A DNA stretch of 64,000 nucleotides, from the NCBI GenBank assembly GCA_033763895.1, contig JANRJQ010000004.1, positions 434,001 to 498,000 on the forward strand, written 5' to 3'. The notes beneath the pieces were generated by a model. It was not told the origin of the DNA, did no database searches, and was given only the letters and a program-made list of their open reading frames with translations. The translations under genes were made by a program, and so were the position numbers. This DNA is from Chloroherpetonaceae bacterium. Lineage in GTDB: Bacteria; Bacteroidota; Chlorobiia; Chlorobiales; Thermochlorobacteraceae. Each line of letters begins with the position of its first letter. Positions within the stretch are counted from its first letter, which is position 1. Shown here in pieces: positions 12,558 through 15,301 of this stretch.

Positions 12558-12941
12558 ATGAGTTTTAGTGAACTGAAAAAATTGACCGATGGGCTGCTTT
12601 ACCCAAGCGAATCTGATTTTCCCTTGATCGCGTTTCATTGGCCCGAAGCCAAAAACTTTGATAGCACTTCGATTGAAAAATTCATTGTTTCCCGTTTTTA
12701 TAATAATAAATCCTTTCACCTTGAGCGTTCTATGCATGAGAATTTTTTAGACCCGATTTGCAAAAATGACCCCACAAATCGATTTAATAAATTGAATCAA
12801 TTCATTAACCGTAATCTTAGAAATCCTCAGGCTTTTCTTTTTTCAGAAAATGACAACCCAAGCGAAAAAAAATTATTTATCGTTGGCTCTTTAAATAGCG
12901 GTGAAGCCTGCGGATTTCATACAACACTTATTGAAACCTAA
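12558..12941 (+). CDS. Nuclease A inhibitor (NuiA)-like protein
   Basis: The 127-residue protein has the NuiA-family opening LTDGLLYPSESDFPLIAF and the closing pattern FIVGSLNSGEACGFHTTLIET. Anabaena NuiA binds and blocks the non-specific nuclease NucA. No NucA-type nuclease (DRGH motif) was seen in this window. The protein is somewhat more divergent in the middle. It is the first gene of a plus-strand run leading to the photolyase. The family assignment is from recall of its motifs; inhibitory activity is inferred. Confidence 0.7.
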   Translation: MSFSELKKLTDGLLYPSESDFPLIAFHWPEAKNFDSTSIEKFIVSRFYNNKSFHLERSMHENFLDPICKNDPTNRFNKLNQFINRNLRNPQAFLFSENDNPSEKKLFIVGSLNSGEACGFHTTLIET

Positions 12942-12944
12942 ATC

Positions 12945-13400
12945 ATGCTCGATATTCATAACTCGGCTCAACTCAGTCACTTGCTGAATCAATTGCAGCC
13001 CAAGGAATCCCCAGTTTTCGGAGCCTTTTCTGCTCAAGGGATGATTGAACATCTCTATTTAAGTCTTCAAATTTCAAATGGTAATCTCCCTCAAACATTG
13101 CATTTCCCTGAGAGAAAAGCAGAGATTATTAAACAAAGACTAATCCACTCGCCCAATGAAATTCCGGTAGGGTTTAAATCGCCAATCGTCCCCGATTTAC
13201 CCCCTCCACTGATTTTTGAATCGATTGAAATGGCGAAAACCAATCTACTTACAGCCCTTTCAAATTTTCATCAGTTTTTTCTTGAAAACCCTGATGCGAA
13301 ACCAATGAATCCCACAATGGGCGAGCTCAACAAAACCGAATGGGAAACCTTTCATACCAAGCATTTTACACATCACTTCAAACAGTTTAAGTTGATTTAA
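12945..13400 (+). CDS. DUF1569 (DinB-like) family protein
   Basis: The 151-residue helical protein begins 3 bases after the upstream stop. It shows the DUF1569 marks FGAFSAQGMIEHLYLSLQIS near the start and MGELNKTEWETFHTKHFTHHFKQF at the end. The conserved histidines (MIEHL, KHFTHH) could form a metal site as in DinB-like four-helix proteins. In some Bacteroidota a similar domain is fused to phenylacetate-pathway enzymes. Its role alone is unknown. Confidence 0.7.
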   Translation: MLDIHNSAQLSHLLNQLQPKESPVFGAFSAQGMIEHLYLSLQISNGNLPQTLHFPERKAEIIKQRLIHSPNEIPVGFKSPIVPDLPPPLIFESIEMAKTNLLTALSNFHQFFLENPDAKPMNPTMGELNKTEWETFHTKHFTHHFKQFKLI

Positions 13401-13460
13401 TCGCTTGCGGGAATGTTTACCACTTTTTTTTTGTCGTAAGTCGAAATCGACTCAACTTAA

Positions 13461-13754
13461 ATGACTGTTTTCATCACCAAAACGGCTCAAGGTCATCTCG
13501 AAGAGCTTGTCGCTTCAGGTCAAATTCATTCACGAAGGTTTCGCCTCATTCTTAAAGGTGTTGCTCAGGCAATGCCAATTTTGGAAATTCAATTTGATAT
13601 GATTCCAAGCGATGATGATGCCTTTCTTCGCCAAGCAGGGTTTGAAATTTACATTGATCGAAATTCAAAAAAACATGCCGATGGTGCAATCATCGATTTC
13701 TTAGAAACTCCATTTGGCGGCACTTTAACTGTAGAAAATCCTTACCGCATCTAA
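13461..13754 (+). CDS. IscA/HesB-like protein lacking all cluster cysteines
   Basis: The 97-residue protein follows the A-type iron-sulfur carrier fold: ITKTAQGHLEELV at the start, RRFRLILKG in place of the first cysteine strand, then GFEIYIDRNSKKHADGAIID and TPFGGTLTVENP. These line up with the IscA blocks around its DG-X-X-X-D-F and F-X-X-NPN regions. True carriers hold the cluster with one central and two C-terminal cysteines. Here there is no cysteine anywhere and the chain ends right after NPYRI. It therefore cannot carry a cluster in the usual way. It lies 14 bases before the iron-sulfur photolyase gene, probably in one transcript. Confidence 0.72.
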   Translation: MTVFITKTAQGHLEELVASGQIHSRRFRLILKGVAQAMPILEIQFDMIPSDDDAFLRQAGFEIYIDRNSKKHADGAIIDFLETPFGGTLTVENPYRI

Positions 13755-13768
13755 CTCTATTTCTTCAA

Positions 13769-15301
13769 ATGCCCAACCTTGCTTGGATTATTGGCGATCA
13801 GCTAACCCCCTCTAACTCAGCGCTTCAATTGCTCGAGAAAAAACATGATTATGTCTTGATGGTCGAATCGCTTGAACACGCAAGCCTTCTCAATCATCAC
13901 AAACACAAATTGATACTCTGCTTTTCAGCGATGCGCCATTTTCGGGAAGAACTTATTGAGTTGGGCTATCAAGTGCTTTACTTTGAATTGGAAGAGAATC
14001 ATTCATTCCAGACAGCACTGAAATCAATTTCAAAAAAAAATCATATTAATCGCATTTTCTTAATGGAGCCGCATGAAAAAGCCACCGTTGAATTTGCAAG
14101 TAATTTCAATCACGACCCGAAAATTGAACTCACCCCCAATACAATGTTTCTGACCGATCGGCATGCCTTCATCAAAAAAAATAAGAAAAAAAAACACTTG
14201 GTAATGGAGCCCTTTTATCGAGAAATGAGAAAGAAACACCGTGTACTGTTGGAGAAGAATGGTCAACCAACAGGTGGGGCGTGGAATTTTGATAAAGAAA
14301 ATCGTTTGCCGTTGAAATCCGATGTCAAACTCCCTGAAGTTTATTCTCCAAAAAAAGATAAAATTGATCGCGATGTAATCGGGGCTGTCGAAAAGTATTT
14401 CCCGAATAATCCCGGTCATACACAAGATTTCTCACTTCCGACAACTCGTGAAGAATCAGAAATTTTCTTTCATGATTTTGTCAAGCACCGCCTCCCACTG
14501 TTTGGTAAATATGAAGATGCTATGCTCGCAAACGAAAGTATTCTATTTCATTCCTCTATTTCACCACTTTTGAATATCGGCCTTCTTGACCCTCTTAAGC
14601 TTGTCCGCGATGTTGAAGCTTGCTTCAAAAAAAATCACGCACCGATTAATTCTGTTGAAGGTTTTATACGGCAAATCATTGGTTGGCGTGAATTCATATA
14701 TGCCTGCTATTGGCTTAAAATGTCCGAGACCGATTACCACAAAGAAAATTTTTTTAATAATACTCACAAGCTCCCAGAGTTTTTCTGGACTGGCAATACA
14801 AAAATGAACTGTCTCTCTCAAGTTATTAACCGAGTAATCAAGCACGGATACTCTCATCACATAGAACGCTTGATGATTCTTGGTAATTTTGCTCTGCTTT
14901 TCGGAGTAAAACCCGAAGAAATCAATCAATGGTTTTGGGAGTTTTATGTCGATTCTTATGATTGGGTCGTTACACCAAATGTTATTGGGATGTCTCAATT
15001 TGCAGATGGTGGATTGGTTGCCACAAAGCCCTACGCGGCAAGTGCCAATTATATTTCCAAAATGAGCAACTTTTGTCATAGCTGCAGTTACAATAAAACT
15101 GAGCGAACCGGAAAAAATGCTTGCCCTTTCAACTATTTGTATTGGGATTTCTATCTCCGCAATGAAGAGAAACTCAGAGGAAATTCTCGCATCGGAATGG
15201 CTTACCAACTCCTTGAAAAAAAGTCAGCCGATGAATTGGTTGCGATTCGTACCTCCGCCGATGAATTTCGTGAAAAAATAAAACCCAATTCATATTATTG
15301 A
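13769..15301 (+). CDS. Iron-sulfur bacterial cryptochrome/photolyase (FeS-BCP)
   Basis: A 510-residue flavoprotein of the (6-4) photolyase type (CryPro, PhrB). The N-terminal antenna domain starts NLAWIIGDQLTP. The FAD-binding helical domain includes GFIRQIIGWREFIYACYW and SYDWVVTPNVIGMSQFADGG. Four cysteines at 348, 436, 439 and 452 have the spacing 88/3/13, the same as the 4Fe-4S ligands of Agrobacterium PhrB (350, 438, 441, 454). It should repair UV lesions in light or act as a light sensor. It closes a run that also holds an IscA-like protein. Confidence 0.93.
   Translation: MPNLAWIIGDQLTPSNSALQLLEKKHDYVLMVESLEHASLLNHHKHKLILCFSAMRHFREELIELGYQVLYFELEENHSFQTALKSISKKNHINRIFLMEPHEKATVEFASNFNHDPKIELTPNTMFLTDRHAFIKKNKKKKHLVMEPFYREMRKKHRVLLEKNGQPTGGAWNFDKENRLPLKSDVKLPEVYSPKKDKIDRDVIGAVEKYFPNNPGHTQDFSLPTTREESEIFFHDFVKHRLPLFGKYEDAMLANESILFHSSISPLLNIGLLDPLKLVRDVEACFKKNHAPINSVEGFIRQIIGWREFIYACYWLKMSETDYHKENFFNNTHKLPEFFWTGNTKMNCLSQVINRVIKHGYSHHIERLMILGNFALLFGVKPEEINQWFWEFYVDSYDWVVTPNVIGMSQFADGGLVATKPYAASANYISKMSNFCHSCSYNKTERTGKNACPFNYLYWDFYLRNEEKLRGNSRIGMAYQLLEKKSADELVAIRTSADEFREKIKPNSYY

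Follow-up and report, generated by a model that had tools for sequence, protein, structure and literature searches.

Why does a small protein of the A-type (IscA/HesB) family that contains not a single cysteine lie immediately upstream of an iron-sulfur photolyase, and does it serve that photolyase? The window, by which we mean the whole stretch of 64,000 nucleotides that was analyzed, codes for this protein, P0001 (97 amino acids, no cysteine), at 13461 to 13754 of the forward strand, in an open reading frame that begins with ATG. The Pfam family PF01521 (Fe-S_biosyn) recognizes it with 27.7 bits (gathering score, 26.3), while it falls far under all of the A-type equivalog cut-offs of NCBIfam (36.4 bits with TIGR00049, for which the cut-off is 58.8), so that the likeness to A-type proteins is one of family and P0001 satisfies no equivalog model. 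A profile of the five nearest relatives, from which P0001 was left out, gives it 46.1 bits versus 4.8 for the best of 1000 shuffles of P0001, and a profile of canonical carriers only gives 28.5 bits versus 5.0 for the best shuffle, so the family match is not due to chance. The core residues of the A-type family are also kept. The A-type homology of a cysteine-free protein, which the preliminary description had put forward, holds at this family level.

A-type carriers are defined by the cluster ligands Cys-Xn-Cys-X-Cys (PMC7144353). Canonical IscA, SufA, and ErpA, including the two copies in the window genome (L017 and L025), share both fold and profile with P0001 and possess these ligands, whereas P0001 lacks them and is the only one among the A-type proteins listed that has no cysteine. 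In the alignments, residues 33 to 36 (13557 to 13568, forward strand) read GVAQ where the nearest relatives have CA(G/A/S)C, with Gln36 in the column of canonical Cys35. The protein ends with PYRI-stop (13740 to 13754, forward strand), while the relatives run on past this point as YG(S/T)S(A/V)CW(W/L), so that the C-terminal cysteine tail is absent. The former cysteine positions are then a glycine, a glutamine, and nothing, and the ligand loop contains no His, Asp, or Glu. This rules out the known mode of cluster carriage for P0001, which has neither the three cysteines nor any of these residues in the loop, and agrees with the non-carrier role that had been suggested previously. With all cysteines lost, P0001 is probably not an iron-sulfur carrier, and this is the best-supported part of our interpretation. 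A frameshift as the source of the loss was considered and rejected, as the other two frames after the Tyr95 codon give no cysteine and the loop is of the same length as in the relatives.

The predicted structure supports an A-type (HesB/IscA) fold, as the preliminary description had anticipated. With 18 relatives as the alignment, AlphaFold gave a model with a pLDDT of 91 and a pTM of 0.81, a confidence that leans on those relatives, and its best Foldseek match was [2Fe-2S]-bound IscA (1x0g; E value, 1.3e-6; TMq, 0.82). The run without an alignment was uninformative (pLDDT, 35), and the statement about the fold of P0001 therefore rests on homology.

The closest relatives of P0001 form a divergent third group of A-type proteins, found in three genomes of Chlorobiales (G009, G010, and G012; Chloroherpeton-like genomes and ES-bin-17) and, from a different Bacteroidota family, in two further genomes (L046 and L047). 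The Chlorobiales proteins are L042 (1501-1815) of G010, which is Chlorobiales ES-bin-17 (JACMJS01, a 100% match to the L042 protein) and belongs to the same order as the window genome (G000), together with L043 (1501-1818) and L044 (1501-1812). Third-group proteins have three cysteines each. The GGGC of canonical carriers is CA(G/A/S)C or CSAC in them, and their C terminus, of the form YG(S/T/A)S(A/V/T/S)C(W/F), replaces the canonical CGCG. In the Chlorobiales proteins this amounts to an unusual ligand set, CAxC and one C-terminal cysteine followed by WW or WL. L046 and L047 have CSAC...STCF or SSCF, and their gene is found on the reverse strand in the middle of the locus, flanked by a peroxiredoxin gene and by a large divergent open reading frame. 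P0001 is similar to these five proteins in length, fold family, and PF01521 membership (31% identity to L042 over the alignment), but they have CAxC or CSAC and one C-terminal cysteine, whereas P0001 has none and adjoins the photolyase instead.

In the tree, P0001, the third group, and a DsrR fragment are split from 13 canonical carriers with a support of 99/100. P0001 is a long end branch (2.56 changes per column), and no settled branch order is obtained inside the third group. The window genome has two canonical A-type carriers with three cysteines (G000:C4:892644 and G000:C11:132269), and P0001 groups with neither of them. Searches of the genome contigs with P0001 found no close orthologues, and those with L042 as the query found only ES-bin-17 itself.

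The third-group gene lies directly after comEC in G009 and G012 (L043 and L044) and one gene past a comEC-like end in G010 (L042), these being presumptive comEC genes that we named from their translations. The comEC gene of the window genome is intact at C4:955747 and no A-type open reading frame was seen beside it, which suggests that the P0001 gene has probably moved; the idea of copy replacement at the ancestral comEC site was discarded on the same observation. A mobile or phage origin was discarded as well, as P0001 had no match in plasmids or phages, just one weak PHROG of unknown function.

We think there are fair grounds to regard P0001 as a diverged, non-carrier copy from the third group, most likely a protein-binding regulatory or adaptor module, which came to adjoin the photolyase by rearrangement. 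Its ancestor would already have belonged to the unusual third A-type subfamily of the order, with CxxC and one C-terminal cysteine. The copy would then have lost every cysteine, and with them the carrying of iron-sulfur clusters, and would have been kept under selection as a folded protein, as suggested by a frame that is open on a very long branch together with the retained core residues of the family. Its present position, 14 bases before the photolyase, may stem from a lineage-specific rearrangement. The two genes could be cotranscribed, and P0001 would not be needed for loading the cluster into the photolyase.

The A-type fold has been put to such use elsewhere. Cysteine-free homologues of IscA are already known, namely, DsrR of Allochromatium vinosum (2k4z), which like P0001 has an IscA-like fold without conserved cysteines (Foldseek probability, 1.00; TMq, 0.78). 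DsrR is not a cluster binder according to the title of Grimm et al. 2010, as cited in PMC11406059, and has been reported from Pseudomonadota, SAR324, Nitrospirota, and Nitrospinota only (PMC11406059). However, DsrR is encoded with dsr genes, and dsrA had no match in the window genome, so the role of DsrR itself is unlikely for P0001 and was rejected. The tree, in which both proteins are long branches, does not pair them, and the AU test gives a P value of 0.099 for keeping them together. The second precedent is PdhI/YneR of Bacillus subtilis, which has a weakly IscA-like fold and inhibits pyruvate dehydrogenase E1 by binding to it (PMC10090944), and whose structural match to P0001 is weak and one of fold only (9a4q; TMq, 0.53). 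By analogy with DsrR and PdhI/YneR, P0001 is probably a protein-binding module. A chicken IscA1 copy is also without the motif (PMC7144353). With P0001, the A-type fold has apparently been stripped of its cluster ligands in a second bacterial lineage, and through the CxxC...CW(W/L) group, the probable source of P0001, the transition from carrier to non-carrier can be followed step by step.

The same loss of ligands would be seen if P0001 were a relic, as the preliminary description had also considered, namely, a functionless carrier paralogue in neutral decay whose frame happens to be still open, and the long branch, the occurrence in a single species, and the redundancy with the canonical carriers of the genome all fit this reading. 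We nevertheless consider it unlikely, since the frame is intact over its 97 codons, codon use is host-like (CAI-like value of 0.74, compared with 0.66 to 0.74 in seven neighboring genes), and the sequence still fits the profile of its relatives at 46 bits. In simulations, only about 5% of the frames were still open at 0.5 neutral substitutions per site, and 1.6% at 1.0.

The neighbor is a FeS-BCP or PhrB-type (6-4) photolyase (13769 to 15301, forward strand; PF04244, 223.8 bits), which follows the P0001 open reading frame on the same strand after a gap of 14 bases. As had been described, its cysteines 348, 436, 439, and 452 are in exact register with the 4Fe-4S site of PhrB (4dja, 461 bits), and beyond the alignment of these four cluster cysteines nothing unusual was seen in comparison with PhrB. 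The preliminary description went further and proposed that P0001 is a scaffold or chaperone for this photolyase, and that the pairing might be conserved. A dedicated accessory of this kind would act on the photolyase as a chaperone or regulator without carrying a cluster, binding it so as to keep its cluster domain open or to gate DNA binding, and would be coexpressed with it from a short operon. Such a role would agree with the short gap, the shared strand, the A-type fold, and a target that is itself an iron-sulfur protein. Adjacency of genes by itself is, however, weak evidence for a partner in iron-sulfur maturation, and the distribution of the pair speaks against it.

Orthologous photolyases were identified in G010 and in eight members of the same family, as full-length matches with 58 to 63% identity in G010 and in seven of the eight, the eighth family match being a fragment at a contig edge. 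All nine of the other full copies in the order, including a duplicate in one genome, have the four cysteines with the same spacing, yet none of these nine loci has an A-type gene within 1.5 kb, and the genes upstream of the photolyase vary among loci. Six-frame HMM scans covered the same-order loci, another 30 photolyase loci from Bacteroidota, and a viral contig (with flanks of 1.5 kb for most) and detected no A-type frame besides P0001. In 394 sampled Bacteroidota genomes, the photolyase family was found at 132 places in 131 genomes; none of the 131 places other than that of the window showed adjacency to an A-type gene, the nearest other pair being 17 kb apart, although the genome-level PF01521 search behind these counts did not report P0001 itself, so an equally diverged copy near a photolyase could escape it. 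A profile containing P0001 gave no further strongly P0001-like protein in the same 394 genomes, and our literature search found no paper naming both HesB and photolyase. The nearest relatives of P0001, moreover, occur beside or near comEC and without any link to a photolyase, an observation that the preliminary description had itself named as refuting its proposal.

The proposed link between P0001 and the photolyase is thus not supported by these data, and a dedicated accessory seems quite improbable. We give even less credence to a lineage-specific variant, in which P0001 was recruited by this one photolyase as a partner, binds its apo or cluster domain, and regulates or stabilizes it without carrying a cluster. 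From the earlier interpretation we keep the non-carrier A-type fold and the FeS-BCP neighbor and give up the dedicated helper and the conserved pairing. P0001 has the appearance of a common kind of gene copy that was repurposed, or is decaying, and not of a helper to the photolyase. Cryptic binding of a metal or cluster through ligands other than cysteine, for example as a mononuclear iron donor, would suit the retained fold and the proposals that some A-type proteins are iron donors, but it is hardly credible given what stands at the lost cysteine positions and the composition of the loop.

The genes upstream of P0001 are codirectional with it and code for a NuiA-like (nuclease A inhibitor-like) protein (12558 to 12941, forward strand; PF07924, 56.9 bits), which heads the string, and, 3 bases further on, for a DUF1569 protein (12945 to 13400, forward strand; PF07606, 24.2 bits). 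The complete string of four genes (NuiA-like, DUF1569, P0001, and photolyase) was seen in the window genome only, and relatives of the DUF1569 gene in G003 and G010 have no photolyase adjoining. Last, TTTAAGTTGA / TCAACTTAAA form a perfect inverted repeat of 10 nucleotides, the first arm of which lies at the end of the DUF1569 gene (13386 to 13395), while the second starts shortly before the P0001 start codon and runs into it (13452 to 13461).
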